Of a DNA stretch of 64,000 bases, positions 17,033-64,000 are shown piece after piece; the first letter of the stretch is position 1; each line of letters begins with the position of its first letter. The stretch is from NCBI GenBank assembly GCA_016191555.1, contig JACPVX010000073.1, positions 1 through 64,000 on the forward strand, read 5' to 3'. The notes beneath the pieces are model-generated. The model saw only the letters and a list, made by a program, of their open reading frames with translations, ran no database searches and was not told where the DNA came from. The position numbers and the translations under genes were made by a program. The stretch is from Bacteroidota bacterium (lineage in GTDB: Bacteria > Bacteroidota > Bacteroidia > Cytophagales > Cyclobacteriaceae).

Positions 17033-17238
17033 TTGCTTCGGTTTTTGAAAGGTAACACTTTGAAAGTGTGACGGATCGCAAAACAAGGCATTTTGATTTT
17101 TTAATCAAAGTGAAAATCCGACCAGAAGTAATAAAAACAGAACATTTCCCATCACTATTGACATCCCCTACTTCGCCCAACTAATAACCACTTAACTATT
17201 TCGCATCATCTGTCGAATTGATAACTTGCAAGCTGAAT

Positions 17239-18738
17239 ATGCAGCGTTTAGGACTAAATCAATCACTTCAGCAAAAACTGTCTCCCCAACAGATTCAGTT
17301 TATCAAGTTATTGCAAGTGCCTACTGCAGAGTTGGAAAACCGGATTGAAGAAGAATTGGAGATAAATCCCGTTCTCGAACAAGGCGAAGACGATGATCGG
17401 ATAGATGATAACCATCCGGATGAAGTTCCAACTGATGATTTGCCCGATGGTGATGCTCCTGTTGAAGAGGTGAATCCCAATGATGAAATCGATATCAACG
17501 ATTACCTGCGGGATGACGACTATGGTAGCTACAAAACCTACAATGATGGCGATGATGAAGATGAGCGTGAATCGCCCGTAGCAACTTCTACGTCTTTGCA
17601 TGAAACGTTGATGACCCAATTAGGATTTTTGGGTTTAGACGATAAAAATTATACCATCGGCAAACAATTAATTGGCAGCATTGAAGGTGATGGTTATATC
17701 CGTAGAGAACTTGATTCGATCGTAAATGATCTGGCCTTTTCGCAACGAGTAGAGACCAATATCGAGGAAGTAGAATCAATCCTCCGAAAAATTCAGTCTT
17801 TTGATCCTGCCGGTATCGCAGCTCGCAATCTGCAAGAATGCCTGCTGCTGCAACTGGATAGAATGGATGATGGGCAAGATGTAGACGTGATTGTAGCTAA
17901 GCGCATTTTAAATGAGTGCTACGAAGAGTTTACCAGAAAGCATTACCCGCGCATTTTGAAGAAACTCGATTTGGATGATGAAGATTACATCAAAGATGCC
18001 ATCGAGCTGATTGTGCGCCTCAACCCCAAGCCGGGAGGCGAAGTAGCCTCTGGAATGGTGAAAAATCAATATGTCATTCCCGATTTTATTTTAGTCAATA
18101 ATAATGGCAAGCTCGAGCTTTCACTCAACTCGCGCAATGCCCCTGAGTTACGCATCAGCCGATCGTACAATGAGATGTTCCACGCCTACGAAAAGAGTGA
18201 TAAAAAGGACAAAAAGCTTCGCGAGGCAGTCGCATTTGTCAAGCAGAAATTAGACTCGGCCCGGTGGTTTATCGATGCCATTCGTCAACGTCAGATCACT
18301 TTATTGAAAACCATGCGTGCGATCGTTGATTTTCAGTATGACTATTTTTTGGAAGGTGACGAGACGAAGCTAAAACCGATGATTTTAAAGGATGTGGCCG
18401 GTATGATCGGTATGGACATATCTACGGTAAGCCGGGTGGCTAGTAGCAAAACCGTGCAAACTGATTTCGGCATCTTTCCGCTGAAGTATTTTTTCTCCGA
18501 GGGTATCACCACCGATTCTGGCGAAGAAGTGAGTAGCCGCGAGGTAAAACAGATTATCAAAGATATCATTGACGCTGAGGATAAGAATAAACCTTTGGCA
18601 GATGATAAGCTGGAGGAAATGCTCAACGAGAAGGGTTATAACATTGCCCGCAGAACAGTTGCTAAATACCGGGAGCACCTAAATATACCGGTGGCACGAT
18701 TACGAAGAGAATTTAAATCAGGTGAAGAGCGCAGCTAA
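17239..18738 (+). CDS. rpoN: RNA polymerase sigma-54 factor
   Basis: RpoN directs RNA polymerase to -24/-12 promoters and needs an AAA+ activator to open them. The start is the ATG at 17239 (MQRLGLNQSLQQKLSPQQ); the track opens earlier at a TTG. Region I is glutamine-rich and leads into a very acidic linker (residues about 50-120, rich in DD and DE). The core-binding domain, helix-turn-helix (VAGMIGMDISTVSRVASSK) and RpoN box (ARRTVAKYRE) follow. A cognate activator and several -24/-12 promoters lie in the same window at 53-64 kb. Confidence 0.97.
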   Translation: MQRLGLNQSLQQKLSPQQIQFIKLLQVPTAELENRIEEELEINPVLEQGEDDDRIDDNHPDEVPTDDLPDGDAPVEEVNPNDEIDINDYLRDDDYGSYKTYNDGDDEDERESPVATSTSLHETLMTQLGFLGLDDKNYTIGKQLIGSIEGDGYIRRELDSIVNDLAFSQRVETNIEEVESILRKIQSFDPAGIAARNLQECLLLQLDRMDDGQDVDVIVAKRILNECYEEFTRKHYPRILKKLDLDDEDYIKDAIELIVRLNPKPGGEVASGMVKNQYVIPDFILVNNNGKLELSLNSRNAPELRISRSYNEMFHAYEKSDKKDKKLREAVAFVKQKLDSARWFIDAIRQRQITLLKTMRAIVDFQYDYFLEGDETKLKPMILKDVAGMIGMDISTVSRVASSKTVQTDFGIFPLKYFFSEGITTDSGEEVSSREVKQIIKDIIDAEDKNKPLADDKLEEMLNEKGYNIARRTVAKYREHLNIPVARLRREFKSGEERS

Positions 18739-53787: not shown

Positions 53788-54954
53788 ATGAAAATAGCAA
53801 TTGTTATCAATACAACTTGGAACATCTTTAATTTCCGAATGGGATTATTAGAAGCGCTTCAAAGTGATGGTCATGAAATTCACGCGATTTCACCTGCAGA
53901 TGAATATGTAACTCATTTAGTCGATACAGGGATTATCCACCACCATGTGTCGATCAGTGCACATGGAAGCAATCCAATTAAAGATTGTGCACTATTAATG
54001 GATCTAATGCGTCTCTATATCAAAATCAAACCCGATGTGATTCTTCACTATACCATAAAGCCCAACATCTATGGTTCATTGGCGGCTGCAATATTAAAAA
54101 TACCTGTTGTCAATAACGTATCTGGTCTGGGCTCTGCATTTCATCGCAAAACGATCACATATTACATGGTTCAACTGCTCTATAAACTTGCTTTTATAAA
54201 TGCTGACAAGATTTTCTTTCAAAACAACGAAGACAGAAATTTCTTTGTCCAGAAGAAATTAGTTCGAAGTGCAAAAACTGACCTCCTGCCCGGTTCTGGA
54301 ATCAATTTGCGTAAATTTCATCCGGTTCATTATCAGAAAGGATCTCCATTTGTTTTTTTAATGGTTGCCAGACTTATTTCGGATAAAGGCATTTTTGAAT
54401 ATGTAGAGGCAATACGGCATTTAAGAAGCAAAGGATACCAAGCTAAATTTCAGTTGCTGGGTGCTTTTGATGCTAAGCCGGACCGTGCAGTGAAACCAGA
54501 AATGATAGATGCTTGGGAAAAAGAAGGTTTGTTAGAATATTTAGGCGTCACAGATCATGTGCAGGAAATCATGTCCCAATCGCATTGTGTCGTGCTACCT
54601 TCCTATCGGGAAGGAACTCCACGAGTGCTGCTAGAAGCAGGTAGCCTATGCAAACCAATCGTTGCAACGGACGTTGCCGGTTGCCATCATGTGGTGAAAG
54701 ATGGGTGCAATGGATTTTTATGCAAACCAATGGATTCCATTGACCTAGCAAACAAAATGCAACTTATTTTAGAGTCTCCGGAAGAACAACTTCGAAAAAT
54801 GGGTGAAAATGGTCGCCAATTAATAGAAACTACATTTGATGAAAATAGAGTAATTGATAAATATCGTCAAGCGATATTTCAATTTGACATCCCTCTACCT
54901 TTCAGTCTCCAGAAACGAGTGCAAAGCTTAACTGATACGATTACTGTTGGGTAG
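53788..54954 (+). CDS. GT4-family glycosyltransferase
   Basis: The 388-residue enzyme starts with the GT4 pattern IAIVINTTWNIFNFRMGLLEAL and has the GT-B acceptor/donor domains. The C-terminal half shows the E-x7-E type element (YREGTPRVLLEAGSLCKPIVATDVAG) and the RLISDKGIFEYVEAI region, as in capsule and exopolysaccharide transferases. It would add a sugar from a nucleotide donor at the cytoplasmic membrane. No other polysaccharide genes lie within the window, so it may decorate a surface glycan or glycoprotein of this regulon. Confidence 0.9.
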   Translation: MKIAIVINTTWNIFNFRMGLLEALQSDGHEIHAISPADEYVTHLVDTGIIHHHVSISAHGSNPIKDCALLMDLMRLYIKIKPDVILHYTIKPNIYGSLAAAILKIPVVNNVSGLGSAFHRKTITYYMVQLLYKLAFINADKIFFQNNEDRNFFVQKKLVRSAKTDLLPGSGINLRKFHPVHYQKGSPFVFLMVARLISDKGIFEYVEAIRHLRSKGYQAKFQLLGAFDAKPDRAVKPEMIDAWEKEGLLEYLGVTDHVQEIMSQSHCVVLPSYREGTPRVLLEAGSLCKPIVATDVAGCHHVVKDGCNGFLCKPMDSIDLANKMQLILESPEEQLRKMGENGRQLIETTFDENRVIDKYRQAIFQFDIPLPFSLQKRVQSLTDTITVG

Positions 54955-55006: not shown

Positions 55007-55372
55007 TCAGGGCTTCAAGAATTTAGCTATTTGTAATTCCAATCGATTAAAGCCGATCGTTACCAATCCTCTATTGGTATTTTCAAATCGTATATAGCAT
55101 ATTTCAGTTTTGGTACTTCTCCAGGTTATGTAGCTTCCATGTATTTCCTGCGTGAACAGTATTTCTCGTTTACTATTTAATAACGTAAACCTGCCTGAAT
55201 GCATATTTTTTAAGTCAAGGCAATAGTTGGTCCCTTTAGTCAAAGGATAGGAGACTTCAGTACCGCCTTCGCGAATAGTCCATTCTTTGAGAGGATAGAA
55301 CCATAAGGGTGCACTTTGTGCATGGCTAACGAGAGATAAAAATAGAGATGCGATGAATAGGATATTCTTCAT
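55007..55372 (-). CDS. Small exported protein of unknown function
   Basis: The 121-residue protein has a signal peptide (MKNILFIASLFLSLVSHAQ) and is otherwise beta-rich (EGGTEVSYPLTKGTNYCLDL, RFENTNRGLVTIGFNRLELQI). No motif or homologue is recognised. A -24/-12-like string (TTGG, ten bases, GA at 55410-55423 on the minus strand) lies 38 bases upstream, too weak to call. It follows the small lipoprotein gene on the same strand with 69 bases between. Confidence 0.6.
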   Translation of the reverse strand: MKNILFIASLFLSLVSHAQSAPLWFYPLKEWTIREGGTEVSYPLTKGTNYCLDLKNMHSGRFTLLNSKREILFTQEIHGSYITWRSTKTEICYIRFENTNRGLVTIGFNRLELQIAKFLKP

Positions 55373-55950: not shown

Positions 55951-56006
55951 TTTTTTCGTTTTTAGAAAACAGTGATTTCGTTATATATCGTAAAAACCAC
56001 TTTTTC
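55951..56006. promoter_or_regulatory. Candidate UAS before the outer-membrane gene
   Basis: TTTTTTCGTTTTTAGAAAAC is followed after 8 bases by TTTCGTTATATATCGTAAA and TTTTTCG. The block ends about 50 bases before the -24/-12 match. The ORF at 56010-56198 through this region is a shadow. Confidence 0.6.
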
Positions 56007-56052
56007 GATTTGCTGAAAATGGCGTTTTTAGCTCAAAAACAGCGTTTTCGAG

Positions 56053-56072
56053 TTTGGCATAATGCTTGGTAT
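56053..56072 (+). promoter_or_regulatory. Degenerate -24/-12 site of the outer-membrane gene
   Basis: TTTGGCATAATGCTTGGTAT has the correct ten-base spacing but GG in place of GC at -12. The predicted start near 56081 leaves a 32-base leader before the ATG at 56113. Confidence 0.5.
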
Positions 56073-56112
56073 GCACCACACGTCTTCAAACATTTTTTGA
56101 AGGCAAATATTT

Positions 56113-57183
56113 ATGCCAACTACAATAAAAAAGTTTCGATTCATTTTAGTGCTGGTCATCGTAGGCTTCTTTGTGGAAGATGCCTTTGCCCAATTTAAAG
56201 GTGCTCGCAAAATTAAAAGGTATAATTTGGTTTACAAGAAGAAGCGTAAGCGGCTAGTACGTGAAAATACATACACGGCCGTTGGCTTGTCAATGAATGC
56301 CTTAAACTATTATGGAGACTTAGCCCCTCTCCCCACCAGACTTAGCACCGATATTGGATTCACTCACCCTGGTTTTGGTCTTACATTTGTTCATCGTTAT
56401 GGCCCCAGATATACTTTTTTGGCTGAATTTTTAGTAGGTCAATTAGAAGGGTCAGATGCACAGTCGGCTGATATGAATACATCTGATGGAAAATATCGAA
56501 AGCAACGAAACGCATCCTTCAGAAATCCGATTCAAGAAATCACCGCGGTTGCCATTTTTGACTTGTTTCCTAATAAGGGTAATTATTTACATCGGGTGAA
56601 TTGGACTCCATATGTTTTTGCAGGAGTCACTCTATTTAAACATAACCCGCAAGCCCAAGCTCCGGCAACTTACTTGGATGGAACACCAAATCCACAAGCC
56701 GGTCAATGGATAGACTTACAACCGCTGGGTACGGAAGGTCAGTATTCAACTCTTTTACCAACGGACGCGAATTATGGAATTAAGCCGTATAACCTAATGC
56801 AAGTGGCAATTCCATTTGGTGTCGGAGCACGCATTCGCATTGGTGAGTACGTTGATGTGTGGGCTGACATGAGTATGCGATTCACGTTTACAGATTATTT
56901 AGATGACGTGAGTAGAAATTATGTTGATCTTAACCGAATCAAAGACCCGCTGACACAAGCCTTCTCATACAGATCCAATGAAATTCCAAATGTCGGTTTG
57001 CCAACAATAAGTCAAAATATAAATGTCAACGGTGAGATCAAACCTATATCACTAGTGAACGGTTATGGCAGCGAGTACAAGACAAATATTCGTGGCAATT
57101 CAAAGCAAAATGACATTTACACAGTAGCGTCCATTAAAGTAACCTACATCATTACCAGGCTTGGTAAAGCAAAACATAGATAA
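56113..57183 (+). CDS. DUF6089-like outer-membrane beta-barrel protein
   Basis: The 356-residue protein has a signal peptide (PTTIKKFRFILVLVIVGFFVEDAFAQ) followed by a basic segment (RKIKRYNLVYKKKRKR) and beta strands typical of DUF6089 outer-membrane proteins (YTAVGLSMNALNYYGDLAPL, VPYVFAGVTLFKH-type). Relatives are often near T9SS genes in Bacteroidota. The receiver-like gene starts 28 bases after its stop with no terminator, so they are likely cotranscribed from the sigma-54-like promoter. Confidence 0.75.
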   Translation: MPTTIKKFRFILVLVIVGFFVEDAFAQFKGARKIKRYNLVYKKKRKRLVRENTYTAVGLSMNALNYYGDLAPLPTRLSTDIGFTHPGFGLTFVHRYGPRYTFLAEFLVGQLEGSDAQSADMNTSDGKYRKQRNASFRNPIQEITAVAIFDLFPNKGNYLHRVNWTPYVFAGVTLFKHNPQAQAPATYLDGTPNPQAGQWIDLQPLGTEGQYSTLLPTDANYGIKPYNLMQVAIPFGVGARIRIGEYVDVWADMSMRFTFTDYLDDVSRNYVDLNRIKDPLTQAFSYRSNEIPNVGLPTISQNINVNGEIKPISLVNGYGSEYKTNIRGNSKQNDIYTVASIKVTYIITRLGKAKHR

Positions 57184-57211: not shown

Positions 57212-57643
57212 ATGAACGAAGAAACTAAATTGCCAATCGTCATGGTGCTAGACCAGGACGAGATATTCCATTTCATTGTCACGAAGGTTCTCAACCGAGA
57301 CGGCATCAACTGTAATGTGATAAATTATAATAGCATCACTTCGGCAGTTTCTTATTTGCTGGAGAATGCGGAAAGCGAGGCTGAATTACCTGATTTGATT
57401 TTATTGGAGTTATATTTTCATTCAGATCAGGATGGATGGGTGTTTATTGAGTTGTTTGAAAAGATTAAGCAACGCCTGATCAAGCAGCCGAAGGTCCTCA
57501 TTGTTTCGTATACTATGAAACATGCCGACATGACAAGGGTGAGTTCCCATCAAACTATCTTTGATTTTGTTTCTAAACCATTAGATACCGATAGTATTGA
57601 TTATATCCGTGATTTGCTCAAGCCAGCCAATGAAATGAATTAA
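57212..57643 (+). CDS. Stand-alone receiver-domain protein with Glu at the phospho-acceptor site
   Basis: The 143-residue protein is a single REC domain: VMVLDQDEIFHFI (acidic pocket), LILLELYFHSDQDGW (phospho-acceptor strand) and FDFVSKPLD (conserved Lys). The usual Asp of 'LLDL' is replaced by Glu, which could mimic the phosphorylated state or block phosphorylation. No output domain is present. It is the second gene after the outer-membrane protein and may act as a signalling or scaffold partner for the sigma-54 activator. Confidence 0.8.
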   Translation: MNEETKLPIVMVLDQDEIFHFIVTKVLNRDGINCNVINYNSITSAVSYLLENAESEAELPDLILLELYFHSDQDGWVFIELFEKIKQRLIKQPKVLIVSYTMKHADMTRVSSHQTIFDFVSKPLDTDSIDYIRDLLKPANEMN

Positions 57644-57941: not shown

Positions 57942-58005
57942 TTTTTCGTTTTTAGGAAACAGTCATTTTCGTTAAATAAAAACAATCAAGTTTTATTTCG
58001 TTACG
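57942..58005. promoter_or_regulatory. Candidate UAS before the first surface-protein gene
   Basis: Of the 467-base gap 57644-58110, the left 300 bases show only a weak GGAACT/AGTTCC inverted repeat near 57740. This block then contains TTTTTCGTTTTTAGGAAAC, TTTTCGTTAAATAAAAAC and ATTTCGTTACG in a row. It ends about 60 bases before the -24/-12 promoter. Confidence 0.6.
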
Positions 58006-58064: not shown

Positions 58065-58081
58065 TTGGTACAGGATTTGCC
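58065..58081 (+). promoter_or_regulatory. Sigma-54 promoter of the first surface-protein gene
   Basis: TTGGTACAGGATTTGCC fits the -24/-12 consensus, with GG and GC ten bases apart. The predicted start near 58092 leaves a 19-base leader before the ATG. Confidence 0.85.
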
Positions 58082-58110: not shown

Positions 58111-60282
58111 ATGAGCAACCAACAAACCTCTACTAACAGTAAATGGAGCATAGCATTTGCAGCTGTCCTCTTAATTTGCGCTCCCCAGGTATGGGCACAG
58201 ACATTGGGCGATTATCGTTCCATTGCAACCGGCAACTGGAGTTCCAATTCTACATGGCAAAGCTATAATGGTTCTGCATGGGTCGCGGCCACAAGCTATC
58301 CGGGGCAGTCGGCCACGGCTCCGATAGTGACTATACAAACTCCTCATACAATTACTTTAAATATAAACCCACCGCTTATAGTTGCGGATCAATTAATTAT
58401 CAATGCCGGCGCTTCTTTGGTAGACTCACCAGCTTCTCCTAGCTATACGTTGTGGACTCAAGCTCGCTTAGATGTATACGGCAATCTAAACTTTACCAAT
58501 ACGCTTACTGCAACGTCAGGCGTTCAGTCGAATTTTATATTTATATATGCAGGGGCTTTGTTTTCAGTACACACCATAAGAATAGATCGATTTGTGTCCA
58601 ACTCAGGAACGGCAACTGTAACTACTGATGTAATCAATCTCTTGCCAATTTCAACTACTTTACCATTCCCAACAGGTACGTGGATTAATCAGCCCGGTGG
58701 AACTTTCAACTTTTTGGGAGCGGCAATTACTGCGGGCCTTCACGCAAATTTTTTCAATAATACCGTTAACTACGCCTCTGCTAACACGAATCAAACAGTA
58801 AGAATTCCGGCATCGTCCTACTTTAGCCTGACAATATCGGGCAATGGAGGTAGAACAAAAACACTCCCTGCATCCACAGTTGTTTTAGAGACTGTTGCCG
58901 TACAAGGAAATTCAAATTTTAGTCTAGGGGGCTTCGATTTATTTGTGGGTGGTGATTGGAACTATTCAAGTTCAGGAAATTTTATAGCCGCTGCAAATAC
59001 CACTGTCACGCTAAACGGATCCAGTCAACAAAACATAATCAATACCGGCAATAGCTCGGGGACAATTTTCAGCAACTTTACTATCAATAATGATTTTGCA
59101 ACTTCGCCACAAATAAATGTGCAGGCCACAACGTGGGTTGACCGAACACTTACGATGTTGCAAGGAAACATCAACTTAAACGGCAATTCGTTCAATCATG
59201 GGCCTGTGGCTGGCTCGTTGACTACGCTTGTGCATAGTGGACTTGCCTCGGCCGGATGGATTTATGGAGGTCCGTATCGCAGAACTTTTCAGAATGGTGC
59301 CACGATTGCCGATGGATCTATCAGCGGTATGTTTCCGGTAGGTACAAGCCAGTACTTCCGTCCAATTTATATTTCTAGCCCTACTGTTGCAATCAATAAC
59401 CAAGCACCTACAGTTACTGTTAGCTCAGCTTCCAATGTAACCGATGTAACCATTCCGGATACCGGGGGCCCGATTGTACGACAGCATCAAGGTGCGTGGC
59501 AAATTCTTTCGCTAATCGGTGCGACTGGCGCCTATAATATAAATGCAGGCGGTTTCGGCTTTTTATACATTGGAGATGTAAACGATTTAAGGTTGAGCTT
59601 AGCGTCTTCAGTTGTAGGTGGTGCTGGTGTAAATTCTGGTACTACAACTATTCCTTTTGTACAGCGCACCGGTTTGACACCTGCCCAATTGGGTAATACA
59701 TTTTATTTGGGATCAGTAAACAAAACCAGATCTCCTCTGCCGGTTGAACTAATCGCATTTAATGGAGAAGCCGAAGGTGGCGCAGTTAACCTGAATTGGA
59801 TCACGCGCACAGAGTTGAACTGTGATTACTTTACAGTCTATCGTTCGCGCAATGGTATTGATTTTCTGCCCTTAGGAACCAAAAAGGGTGTGGGCACAAC
59901 TAAGGAACAACGCTCCTATGAAATACAAGATCAGAACCCATGGCAAGGAATCAATTATTACCGATTGGAACAAACGGATTTTGATGGAACCAAAAGTAGC
60001 GTAGCCATGATTTCTGTAGAGGCTAATGGCGCTGAGGCGATTCAATTTTATCCTTCGCACTTAATTAGTGGCCAAAATATTCACTTGCAATTACAAGGAT
60101 TAGCTCCTCAGGCTCAGATGGAAATTTATTTGGTGAATGCCACGGGCCAAACGATTGAACAGTATATTATTAACACTGATCAAGAGGGTAGGTTTTATGG
60201 AGATATCCGAATTGGGGATATCTCTGCTGGATTTTATTATCTAAAACTAAATCAGATTATTATGAAGATTCTGATTAACTAA
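58111..60282 (+). CDS. Large T9SS-type surface protein, copy 1
   Basis: The 723-residue exported protein has a signal peptide ending PQVWAQ, an N-terminal module (YRSIATGNWSSNSTWQSYNG), glycine/asparagine/threonine-rich beta strands (FSLGGFDLFVGGDWNYSSS), and a C-terminal region (VELIAFNGEAEGGAVNLNW, followed by YYLKLNQIIMKILIN) that resembles T9SS-dependent sorting domains. It is a paralogue of the next gene. It is probably secreted and attached to the cell surface; adhesion or matrix formation is inference. Confidence 0.85.
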   Translation: MSNQQTSTNSKWSIAFAAVLLICAPQVWAQTLGDYRSIATGNWSSNSTWQSYNGSAWVAATSYPGQSATAPIVTIQTPHTITLNINPPLIVADQLIINAGASLVDSPASPSYTLWTQARLDVYGNLNFTNTLTATSGVQSNFIFIYAGALFSVHTIRIDRFVSNSGTATVTTDVINLLPISTTLPFPTGTWINQPGGTFNFLGAAITAGLHANFFNNTVNYASANTNQTVRIPASSYFSLTISGNGGRTKTLPASTVVLETVAVQGNSNFSLGGFDLFVGGDWNYSSSGNFIAAANTTVTLNGSSQQNIINTGNSSGTIFSNFTINNDFATSPQINVQATTWVDRTLTMLQGNINLNGNSFNHGPVAGSLTTLVHSGLASAGWIYGGPYRRTFQNGATIADGSISGMFPVGTSQYFRPIYISSPTVAINNQAPTVTVSSASNVTDVTIPDTGGPIVRQHQGAWQILSLIGATGAYNINAGGFGFLYIGDVNDLRLSLASSVVGGAGVNSGTTTIPFVQRTGLTPAQLGNTFYLGSVNKTRSPLPVELIAFNGEAEGGAVNLNWITRTELNCDYFTVYRSRNGIDFLPLGTKKGVGTTKEQRSYEIQDQNPWQGINYYRLEQTDFDGTKSSVAMISVEANGAEAIQFYPSHLISGQNIHLQLQGLAPQAQMEIYLVNATGQTIEQYIINTDQEGRFYGDIRIGDISAGFYYLKLNQIIMKILIN

Positions 60283-60295
60283 CTTACTTATATAT

Positions 60296-60342
60296 GTTTT
60301 TCGTTATTAGTCGTTAGTGTTTTTCGTTGTATTTCGTAAAAG
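60296..60342. promoter_or_regulatory. Candidate UAS before the second surface-protein gene
   Basis: TTTTTCGTTATTAGTCGTTAG is followed by TTTTTCGTTGTATTTCGTAAA. It lies about 60 bases upstream of the -24/-12 site. ATTAGTCGTTAGTG recurs before the activator gene at 62.6 kb. Confidence 0.6.
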
Positions 60343-60398
60343 CGCCTTTTTCAAAATTTAAAAAGGCCATTTTTAACAGCATAAATAAGGTTTTAGGT

Positions 60399-60415
60399 AT
60401 GGTATAATATTTGCC
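60399..60415 (+). promoter_or_regulatory. Sigma-54 promoter of the second surface-protein gene
   Basis: ATGGTATAATATTTGCC has GG and GC exactly ten bases apart. The predicted start near 60426 leaves an 18-base leader. Confidence 0.8.
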
Positions 60416-60443: not shown

Positions 60444-62609
60444 ATGAGAGCATTGAAGATTATTTGCCTTAGTGTTTGTTTTAGTTTATGGGTTAACGCA
60501 TCAGTTCAACTACAAGCACAAAGTTTAGGAGATTATCGGTCTGTCGCTACGGGTGATTGGGGCACGCCATCAACATGGCAATATTACAACGGTTCGGCTT
60601 GGGTGCCATCTACTACCTATCCGGGTCAGATAGCAGCCGTTAATAATGTTACTCTGCAGAGCCCGTTTATTGTGACAGTGGATGTTAATCCCGGTTCCTT
60701 CACCAATCAAATGAATAGTCTTAGGGTGAATAATGGGGCTACCTTGAAAGACAAAGTTGGTGCGCTGTATTATGACATATCGCCCGCAGGCCAATTGGTT
60801 GTAGATGGAACAGTTAATTTGACCAATACGACAGACGTAACAGCGCGGGTGGTAGCCGCTAACTGTATTATTTCCCCTACAGGCAATCTATCTGCACATG
60901 TGTTGTGGATGGTGACTACATTTAACTATGGTATAGCAACCATCACTCATGATGTAGTTAATCTGGTTGCAATTAACCCCCTTTCAAATGTTGGCGTTTG
61001 GGCTAATCAAACAAACTCTGTTTTTAATTTTGGGGGCTCTTCGATGACCGCTGGATTACGAGCGGAATCGGATGGCAATACTGTAAACTACTATTCATCA
61101 TCGAGCAATCAGATCGTAAGAGCACCGGTTACCACCTATTATAATTTAACATTGTCAGGAACTGGTGGCACAACTAAGTCTTTATCTGCAAATACCATAC
61201 TATCAGGAACACTATCCATTCAAGGAAGTTCTAGCTTTAGCTTGGGAGGGTTTGACTTATCAGTTGCTGGTGATTGGAATAACTCCAGTACAAACACGTT
61301 AGCATTAGCAAATTCTTTGGGTATAGTTACTTTCAATGGATCAACAAATCAATCTATCATTAATACGGGAAATTATTCAGGTACTTCTTTTTACTATTTA
61401 AACATTGCTAATACTTCTGCAACGATACCTCAGATTACAATCAGTAATTCAAGTGGACAACCTACCAGGGTGGCAAATTCCTTAATCATGACTTCGGGCG
61501 TAATTAATTTGAACGGGGGGGGCTTTACTTTTGGTTCAAATTATACTAATCCAGTTGTATTTACTCATTCCGGCACATCGGCCTCCGGATGGTTTTACAA
61601 TGGAGTAGTTTATAGGTTATTAATAACAAGTTCTGCAATTGCCGCGGGATCGAATTCCGGTTTGTTTCCAATAGGAGTAAGCACGGAATTCCGGCCATTT
61701 TATATTTCAACGGTTCTTCCTTCGACTACTCCTACTTTAGTCAGCATCACAGCTCCAGGCACTTCTACTTTTGCAAATGTTTCTCTCATTGATGGTGCAT
61801 CTACTATTCGTAGGCAAAACCGTAGTGGTTGGTTAGCAAGCTCCTTTGGAAATGGTATATATAACATACGAGCCGGTGGTACAGGTTTAGGTGTCATTGG
61901 GAATATTGCAGATTTACGTTTAACTCCGGCAACTTTGGTGCTAGGAACTGCAGGGACAAATACGGGCACTACATCCAATCCGCTGGTCGAAAGAACAGGC
62001 ATAACACTTGCGGATCTTAACACAACATTTTATGTGGGGTCAGTTAACTTAATAAGCTCTCCGCTTCCGGTAGAATTGATTTCATTTAGCGGAGAAGCTG
62101 AAGGCTCAGTTGTTAATTTAAATTGGATTACAAGGTCTGAATTGCACTGTGACTATTTCACTGTTTATCGATCGCTAAATGGTATTGACTTTGTTGCAAT
62201 AGGAAACAAAAAAGGATCCGGAACAACAAAAGAGCTGAACAAATACGACCTTCAAGATACAACCCCGTTGAATGGTAATAATTACTATCGGTTGGAGCAA
62301 ACGGATTGGGATGGCTCGAAAACAATCCTTTCAATAATATCAGTTGAAGCAAATGGATCAGAAGCAATACAAGTTTATCCAAATCCTATTGAAGATGGAC
62401 AATCCGCTGAATTGAAGTTGCAGGGATTGGCATCTAATACATTTCAGTCCATTTATGTTTTTGATCAATTAGGAAGGCAAGTATTAAATTCAAAGATTCC
62501 TGTTGATGAGACTGGTGGTTTTAACGGCAAGCTCAAATTGCCGCAACTTCCCGCTGGTTGTTATTTCCTAAAGATCAACAACAATACGAAGCGCCTAATA
62601 ATACGATAA
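60444..62609 (+). CDS. Large T9SS-type surface protein, copy 2
   Basis: This 721-residue paralogue shares the N-terminal module (GDYRSVATGDWGTPSTWQYY), the FSLGGFDLSVAGDWNNSS segment and the C-terminal VELISFSGEAEGSVVNLNWITR and YRLEQTDWDG regions with its neighbour. Its signal peptide is MRALKIICLSVCFSLWVNASV. The two genes, each with its own sigma-54 promoter, appear to be a tandem duplication that has diverged throughout the middle. The C-terminal CYFLKINNNTKRLIIR resembles a sorting signal. Confidence 0.85.
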   Translation: MRALKIICLSVCFSLWVNASVQLQAQSLGDYRSVATGDWGTPSTWQYYNGSAWVPSTTYPGQIAAVNNVTLQSPFIVTVDVNPGSFTNQMNSLRVNNGATLKDKVGALYYDISPAGQLVVDGTVNLTNTTDVTARVVAANCIISPTGNLSAHVLWMVTTFNYGIATITHDVVNLVAINPLSNVGVWANQTNSVFNFGGSSMTAGLRAESDGNTVNYYSSSSNQIVRAPVTTYYNLTLSGTGGTTKSLSANTILSGTLSIQGSSSFSLGGFDLSVAGDWNNSSTNTLALANSLGIVTFNGSTNQSIINTGNYSGTSFYYLNIANTSATIPQITISNSSGQPTRVANSLIMTSGVINLNGGGFTFGSNYTNPVVFTHSGTSASGWFYNGVVYRLLITSSAIAAGSNSGLFPIGVSTEFRPFYISTVLPSTTPTLVSITAPGTSTFANVSLIDGASTIRRQNRSGWLASSFGNGIYNIRAGGTGLGVIGNIADLRLTPATLVLGTAGTNTGTTSNPLVERTGITLADLNTTFYVGSVNLISSPLPVELISFSGEAEGSVVNLNWITRSELHCDYFTVYRSLNGIDFVAIGNKKGSGTTKELNKYDLQDTTPLNGNNYYRLEQTDWDGSKTILSIISVEANGSEAIQVYPNPIEDGQSAELKLQGLASNTFQSIYVFDQLGRQVLNSKIPVDETGGFNGKLKLPQLPAGCYFLKINNNTKRLIIR

Positions 62610-62630
62610 GTGCGGGCTGAATTTTGAGCT

Positions 62631-62675
62631 TTTTGTTGATTAGTCGTTAGTGATTTCGTTATATATAAACAAATT
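62631..62675. promoter_or_regulatory. Candidate UAS before the activator gene
   Basis: The gap 62610-62860 begins with GATTAGTCGTTAGTG and TTTCGTTATATATAAAC, both found upstream of other units. It ends about 58 bases before the -24/-12 match. The ORF at 62650-62844 is not coding. Confidence 0.6.
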
Positions 62676-62730
62676 GATTATTCTAAAATCGAAAAAGTGC
62701 GAATTTGGCCTTTTTAGGCGGTTTTTAGTT

Positions 62731-62748
62731 TTGGTACAGCTTTTGTTA
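62731..62748 (+). promoter_or_regulatory. Sigma-54-like promoter of the activator gene
   Basis: TTGGTACAGCTTTTGTTA has the correct ten-base spacing; the -12 C is T. The predicted start near 62758 gives a leader of about 100 bases. It implies autoregulation. Confidence 0.65.
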
Positions 62749-62860: not shown

Positions 62861-64000
62861 ATGAACCTCCCTAATCCCAACATTCTTTATTTGGATGACG
62901 AAGAAGATAACTTGACTGTCTTCAAATCAACATTCCGTCAAAAATTCAATGTATTAACGGCTACTACTGCACAAGCTGCAATGTCCTTACTTCAGCAAGT
63001 ACCAGTAGGCGTTGTTTTATCGGATTTTAGATTGCGCGAAACGACAGGAATTGATTTCCTTAAAACTGTTTCGGAGTTGTATCCAAACACCGTGCGCATT
63101 TTGATTAGTGCCTATGGCGAAAAAGAAACCGTCATTCGGTCTATCAACGAGGCCAAGGTATTCAGCTTTATTACCAAGCCATGGGATAAAGAGGATATTG
63201 AGCGAGTGATTAGCAGCGCTGTTAATTTGTATCACTTGAAGTTCAAGAATGAGGAGTTAATCACCAATCTGACTATGACGATTGATGAACTAACCATTGC
63301 CAATAAAGAGATTAAGGTACTAAAGGCTAAGCTCCAAAAAGAAAATGAATACTTACGCAGAGAGATTGATAATAACCGCGGAAGTATAGAATGGATTGGT
63401 GCGGGTGAAAAAATGCAATTGGTTAAACAAAAAGTTAGTCAAGTAGCGAAGTTAAATACCGTTGTGTTGATAAAGGGTGAAACAGGAACCGGCAAGGATT
63501 TGGTAGCCAGATCCATTCACGCTTTTAGTAATCGAGCAGCAGCACCCTTTGTCACGTTGAATTGCTCAGCTCTTCCGGGGAACTTAATTGAAAGTGAGCT
63601 ATTTGGTTTTGAGAAGGGTTCTTTTACTGGAGCTTTGAATAATAAAGAAGGCCTTTTTGAATTAGCAGATGGCGGCACCATATTTTTGGATGAGATAGGA
63701 GAGATGTCCATTGAATTTCAGGCGAAGTTACTAAGAGTACTTCAAAACGGTGAGTTCTATCGCATTGGTGGCTTAAAGCCGATCAATGTAGATGTTCGAA
63801 TCATAGCAGCAACCAATCGCGATCTGGAAGATTCAATGAACACGGGAAGATTTCGAACTGATTTGTTTTATAGACTTAATATTTTCCCGATTAGTTTACC
63901 GCCATTACGAGAGCGACAAGAAGATATTCCTGAATTGGTAAAGCACTTTTTGGATAAGTTTCAGAAAAAGCTAGGAATTGAAGTTACATCTGTTTCAGAT
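62861..64000 (+). CDS. NtrC-type sigma-54-dependent response regulator (partial, runs off the window)
   Basis: The ORF track has no entry because the frame runs off the right edge. Reading from the ATG at 62861 gives 380 residues. Residues 1-120 are a receiver (ILYLDDEEDN, phospho-acceptor VVLSDFRL, and SFITKPWD Lys). A coiled-coil linker follows, then the sigma-54 interaction AAA+ domain: Walker A (GETGTGKDLVARSIH), the sigma-54 loop as GSFTGA, Walker B (GGTIFLDEIGEM), and FRTDLFYRLNIFP. The DNA-binding helix-turn-helix should follow outside the window. A sigma-54-like promoter precedes it. Confidence 0.95.
   Translation, partial: MNLPNPNILYLDDEEDNLTVFKSTFRQKFNVLTATTAQAAMSLLQQVPVGVVLSDFRLRETTGIDFLKTVSELYPNTVRILISAYGEKETVIRSINEAKVFSFITKPWDKEDIERVISSAVNLYHLKFKNEELITNLTMTIDELTIANKEIKVLKAKLQKENEYLRREIDNNRGSIEWIGAGEKMQLVKQKVSQVAKLNTVVLIKGETGTGKDLVARSIHAFSNRAAAPFVTLNCSALPGNLIESELFGFEKGSFTGALNNKEGLFELADGGTIFLDEIGEMSIEFQAKLLRVLQNGEFYRIGGLKPINVDVRIIAATNRDLEDSMNTGRFRTDLFYRLNIFPISLPPLRERQEDIPELVKHFLDKFQKKLGIEVTSVSD

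Follow-up and report, generated by a model that had tools for sequence, protein, structure and literature searches.

What can a receiver protein do once glutamate has taken the place of its phospho-acceptor aspartate? The question is raised by a 143-residue protein encoded in the window, by which we mean the whole stretch of 64,000 nucleotides analysed here (contig JACPVX010000073.1 of a Cyclobacteriaceae genome, assembly GCA_016191555.1). A sequence-only reading had described it as a single-domain receiver-like protein with Glu at the acceptor position, cotranscribed with an outer-membrane protein in a sigma-54 region, and had suggested that it would act as a non-phosphorylated signalling part. 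The genes on which our account draws are as follows.

17218..18738, + strand: rpoN (sigma-54), about 40 kb away
53788..54954, + strand: group 4 glycosyltransferase, the conserved left border of the locus (domain match, locus comparison)
55007..55372, - strand: 121-aa protein with an apparent signal peptide, kept here in all three loci
56113..57183, + strand: PorG-like/DUF6089 outer-membrane protein, first gene of a putative operon (score above the DUF6089 cut-off; paralogue comparison)
57212..57643, + strand: single-domain pseudo-receiver, 143 aa (PF00072 match, alignments, AlphaFold model, PDB fold matches)
58111..60282, + strand: large surface protein 1, 723 aa, with N-terminal repeats and a C-terminal tail that resemble those of surface protein 2
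60444..62609, + strand: large surface protein 2, 721 aa, carrying Por_Secre_tail, a sorting domain of type IX secretion (domain match)
62861..64000, + strand: enhancer-binding activator (receiver plus Sigma54_activat), 491 aa, continuing past the window end to contig base ~64336 (domain matches)

Neither the 121-aa protein (in Pfam) nor surface protein 1 (in the libraries searched) has a match of its own, and no Rfam family was found at the locus. The same gene order, from the glycosyltransferase through the opposite-strand 121-aa protein, the PorG-like protein and the pseudo-receiver to the large repeat proteins, is present in the window's genome (G000) and in two others, G207 (locus L034) and G223.

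The protein encoded at 57212-57643 is a receiver by both sequence and predicted fold, as had been read from the letters. PF00072 covers residues 10-129 with 31.2 bits against a cut-off of 30.2 and is the only family to exceed its own cut-off. Eight sequences from the window and locus went into an AlphaFold model with a mean pLDDT of 85 and a pTM of 0.84 (a two-sequence input gave a pLDDT of 43); its strands and helices follow the order of receivers, a (beta-alpha)5 fold. When this model was used to search the PDB, receivers ranked best with TM scores of ~0.7-0.8, including 3ilh from Cytophaga hutchinsonii (0.77/0.82). The viral contigs searched contained no close relative of the protein.

The phosphorylation site is altered at several positions at once. 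The codons concerned are listed below.

57254..57256, + strand: Gln15, in place of DD2, the direct metal ligand (ungapped alignment; kept in all three orthologues)
57407..57409, + strand: Glu66 (gag), at the phospho-acceptor (D) position (alignments; kept in both orthologues)
57509..57511, + strand: Tyr100, at T+1, a position usually taken by a small residue; the T position before it is retained as Ser99 (alignment, orthologues)
57575..57577, + strand: the retained Lys122 (alignment, orthologues)

In alignments with the solved receivers 4xlt and 3ilh, Glu66 falls in the column of their phospho-Asp, and in the model it directly follows strand beta3 (62-65). The same column holds Asp in 32/32 of the nearest canonical receivers from related genomes, and alignment to these 32 relatives and to the solved receivers places no alternative Asp there, which would have contradicted the substitution. 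The Asp-to-Glu assignment is thus borne out, as is the retention of the conserved Lys (Lys122), which accompanies that of Ser99 and the aromatic Phe119 (K-3). The claim that the acidic pocket remains does not survive the alignment: the DD pair reads Asp14-Gln15, so that DD1 is kept and DD2 is lost. Further, the beta3-alpha3 loop reads ELYFHSDQDGW where relatives have DINMPxxDGW, with the Pro at D+4 gone and one residue extra, and Tyr occupies T+1, a small residue in the relatives. Measured against a canonical phosphorylatable receiver (DD pair, D, T/S and K), the protein has replaced DD2 and D, two of the five catalytic residues, in all three orthologues. We note that the receivers L023 and L030, otherwise canonical single-domain proteins with Asp at the site, carry Asn at DD2 (WIIDNDPM).

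On these residues the protein is a pseudo-receiver (aspartate-less receiver) under a published definition, for which phosphorylation-independent regulation is predicted (PMC12632262). Aspartate-less proteins make up ~4% of receivers (cited in PMC12632262), and Glu is the commonest replacement among them, at 26% (PMC4395418). Multiplying the two, we estimate that roughly 1% of receivers carry Glu at the acceptor position, so the Glu66 substitution alone is unremarkable. In ~80% of pseudo-receivers DD2 is a non-acidic residue, and as a class they are depleted of small residues at T+1 (PMC12632262). The suggestion of a non-phosphorylated signalling part is supported by the loss of two of five catalytic residues. 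The companion suggestion, that Glu mimics phospho-Asp, fares less well: a Glu does occupy the site, but the changes at DD2, in the loop and at T+1 make a simple mimic doubtful.

Orthologues of the pseudo-receiver, all three members of the group being from one genus, were found in L034 (the G207 locus, from a Cyclobacteriaceae MAG; 76% identical) and in G223 (58-59%); no others turned up among 63 genus genomes or 391 genomes sampled from the order. All of the pocket changes, Glu included, are common to the three. Synonymous sites are near saturation (pS 0.90 against pN 0.155), indicating strong purifying selection, and the pocket-loop positions are invariant at 25/25 (hypergeometric p 4e-8). 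Because Glu66 is kept in both orthologues despite near-saturated synonymous sites, it is neither a chance change nor a sequencing error. A decaying, non-functional receiver might be suspected from the lost catalytic residues and the low Pfam score; with the frame intact, pN/pS far below 1 and the altered pocket invariant in three species, we reject this reading as barely credible. In a tree, the three orthologues cluster together with full support, on a long branch that arises among single-domain Asp receivers. The group lies with receivers of the DDDxIFQ type, although its exact neighbour is unsure, and far from the receivers of the activator and of the kinase. A paralogue that retains the Asp is encoded at G000:C82:31505-31870.

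The gene that precedes the pseudo-receiver encodes a specialised relative of a known secretion protein. The canonical porG-type gene, on contig C5, is a paralogue (50%) of the one that encodes the outer-membrane protein at 56113-57183. The score of this protein against T9SS_PorG (NCBIfam), 96.9 bits with an E value of 1e-27, falls below the curated cut-off of 130 bits, and we therefore name it PorG-like only. The canonical gene adjoins what we take to be NAD kinase-like, uppS-like and bamA-like genes, and no receiver lies within ~1.5 kb of the canonical porG loci of the genus. In the window, the gap between the outer-membrane gene and the receiver gene is 28 nt and holds no promoter- or terminator-like site, from which the two are probably cotranscribed, as had been proposed; cotranscription is less certain at the other two loci, where 126-139 nt lie between the outer-membrane gene and the start of the receiver.

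The sigma-54 setting proposed for this locus holds up: -24/-12 sites are paired with upstream elements (UAS), an activator gene lies nearby, and the operon's -24/-12 site is conserved in both orthologous loci. The sites in the window are as follows.

55952..55996, + strand: UAS of the outer-membrane protein/receiver operon (element model, 43.8 bits, E 1e-10)
56054..56069, + strand: sigma-54 -24/-12 site TTGGCATAATGCTTGG, 43 bp before the outer-membrane ATG (pattern match)
57942..57987, + strand: UAS of surface-protein gene 1 (element model)
58065..58080, + strand: sigma-54 -24/-12 site TTGGTACAGGATTTGC of surface-protein gene 1, with ~20 bp longer spacing
60297..60343, + strand: UAS of surface-protein gene 2 (element model)
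60400..60414, + strand: sigma-54 -24/-12 site TGGTATAATATTTGC of surface-protein gene 2
62630..62676, + strand: UAS of the activator gene (element model)
62732..62746, + strand: sigma-54-like site TGGTACAGCTTTTGT of the activator gene

A common 45-bp element (TTTTTCGTTTTTAGTCGTTAGTGATTTCGTTATATA...) thus precedes the operon, the two surface-protein genes and the activator gene. The distance from its first TTYGTT to the T of the -24 box is 100 bp, or 120-121 bp in some surface-protein promoters, and the operon itself has both parts in phase (55952-55996 and 56054-56069). The pattern TTGGCAYNNNNNTTGS occurs once in the window, at the operon promoter, and once at the same place in each orthologous locus. 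Nothing above chance was found with the strict form TGGCAC-N5-TTGCW, and the operon site is therefore a TTGGYAY-N5-TTG variant. Since the bare -24/-12 pattern has many other matches genome-wide that fall inside genes, it is weak evidence by itself, and the paired upstream element carries the weight. A sequence-only model of the element, made from nine copies and run on three whole genomes, returned ~10 more strong sites per genome. We counted 21 of the 30 best sites as not used in the model. At 16 of these 21, a strict -24/-12 match lies 99-105 or 119-126 bp away, where ~0.003 per site would be expected at that spacing; two more have one at 92 and 143 bp, spaced, once more, by roughly whole turns of the helix. 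The ~140 bp of non-coding DNA that hold the operon's element and promoter (55952-56093) are 84% identical to L034 despite saturated synonymous sites.

Outside the locus, the element and a -24/-12 site also precede genes at G000:C83:227643, C56:30081, C36:60200 and C85:32243 and their G207 equivalents. These genes encode two small-protein families (~164 aa and ~124-150 aa), which, judging from their upstream sequences, apparently also belong to the regulon; for one of these proteins, a 70-aa segment gave no Pfam match. Copies in reverse orientation lie at G000:C52:23437-23483 and C16:77978-78024, with ~136 bp from their centre to the -24 box of a TTGGCATGAGAGTTGG site on the other strand.

With genes for both rpoN and an activator present, the operon is apparently controlled by sigma-54 and an enhancer-binding activator. 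The activator at 62861, whose own receiver keeps DD, D, S and K, is the natural candidate. The element precedes its gene here and that of its G207 orthologue, and its orthologues, found in 4/63 genomes of the genus, include all three with the pseudo-receiver; on both grounds we infer that it binds the UAS. The activator gene would also be putatively autoregulated. The co-occurrence with the pseudo-receiver may reflect shared descent, as the genomes possibly form one clade. In the fourth genome with the activator, G202, the receiver is absent, which is uninformative because the contigs break on both sides of its expected place, beside the glycosyltransferase and inside a surface-protein gene. 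A receiver-histidine kinase adjoins the activator beyond the window. In G207, a 1090-aa sensor kinase (L143:2463-5735; Reg_prop, Y_Y_Y, HisKA, HATPase) lies between the activator and the receiver-kinase; it is absent from that position in the window's genome.

Taken together, these observations suggested to us that the protein is a phosphate-blind docking receiver whose amount is the signal, set by the sigma-54 promoter and coupled to the PorG-like and surface proteins, a reading to which we assign a probability of about two in three. Glu66 at the acceptor position, Gln15 at DD2, Tyr at T+1 and the rebuilt beta3-alpha3 loop would abolish aspartyl phosphotransfer, leaving a docking module that works independently of phosphorylation and carries its information in the quantity made. 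That quantity would be set by the sigma-54 promoter and its upstream element in helical phase, to which the 62861 activator most likely binds, and the common control would couple the pseudo-receiver to the PorG-like protein and to the large surface proteins of the type IX secretion type. The outer-membrane protein itself cannot directly partner a cytoplasmic receiver. Our guess for the docking partner is an inner-membrane component of type IX secretion, much as PorX binds the cytoplasmic domain of PorL in that system (PMC5005315); with a secretion-type outer-membrane protein sharing the operon, we find such a partner slightly more likely than the local two-component proteins. The retained Ser99, Phe119 and Lys122 would be compatible, too, with a receiver still able to switch conformation. 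A bolder version builds the pseudo-receiver into a sigma-54 circuit specific to the lineage, for feedback or docking: made together with a specialised PorG paralogue from the promoter with the phased enhancer, it would steer surface-protein load to type IX secretion, and the quantity of a receiver blind to phosphate would serve the cell as the signal. We regard this version as rather improbable.

The main rival reading keeps the protein within its own regulon: it would bind the receiver of the activator, or the neighbouring receiver-kinase, and thereby tune the genes with which it is expressed. Membership in the same regulon as an apparently autoregulated activator speaks for this, as do the adjoining receiver-histidine kinase and the precedents and models of CmrT and WhiI/BldM (PMC12632262); its distance in the tree from the activator and kinase receivers speaks against it, and we regard the reading as rather improbable. 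Pseudo-receivers that act through partners, such as FrzS and WhiI/BldM (PMC12632262), are precedents for docking as such.

It is unlikely, in our estimation, that Glu66 imitates phospho-Asp and holds the protein in a permanently active conformation with the output of a phosphorylated CheY-like protein. This would accord with the frequency of Glu in aspartate-less receivers noted above and with the retained Lys122, Ser99 and Phe119, the last being an aromatic needed for Y-T coupling. Yet the usual metal site is gone with Gln at DD2, and the lost Pro at D+4, the one-residue insertion and the Tyr at T+1 leave a pocket that is not that of an ordinary receiver with one change; moreover, Asp-to-Glu alone is often not activating (PMC4395418). 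That the protein is still phosphorylated, on Glu66 or on a nearby acid (Asp72 or Asp74), we hold to be very improbable. Its loop is acidic (SDQDGW) and a phosphorylatable Glu is on record (cited in PMC4395418), but the DD2 metal ligand is lost, T+1 is bulky, and Asp74 is the family's ordinary DG Asp, present in Asp-bearing receivers too.

The type of protein is already known; what merits a test is the setting, a pseudo-receiver gene in a surface-protein regulon with phased enhancers, for which we found no earlier description in a limited open-access literature. A 2025 review describes the switching of bacterial pseudo-receivers on and off as a mystery (PMC12632262). Here a stand-alone pseudo-receiver has its control readable from the DNA, in an enhancer and promoter architecture common to the activator and surface-protein genes. 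With this shared architecture, the idea of a signal carried by protein amount can be put to a direct test, and pseudo-receivers become linked to type IX secretion.

Known systems share parts of this arrangement. In Flavobacterium psychrophilum, another of the Bacteroidota, a gliding/type IX adhesin operon is transcribed from sigma-54 promoters, and -24/-12 promoters likewise stand on gliding and type IX surface-protein genes (PMC9723704); set beside the published description of that regulon, the present locus differs in having a conserved 45-bp element at fixed spacing and a pseudo-receiver gene. The nearest relatives in sequence and fold are the Cytophagales single-domain receivers (3ilh, 4xlt), which share 24-32% identity, a similar length and the PD-ILLD/DGW frame, but in these the phospho-Asp is present, DD2 and the Pro are missing from very few, and T+1 is never Tyr. 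PorX, a phosphorylatable CheY-like regulator, is similar in being a receiver protein tied to type IX secretion; it differs in having a second domain, and the link to a PorL-type partner here is a guess. The PF00072 pseudo-receivers, for example ChxR (with Glu at D), FrzS and RitR, are as a class alike in having the receiver fold with Asp replaced, a non-acidic DD2, a T+1 residue that is not small and the Lys kept. In contrast to these, the protein described here stands alone with no effector, has the D, DD2, loop and T+1 changes fixed together, and is paired with a PorG-like gene under a sigma-54 promoter.
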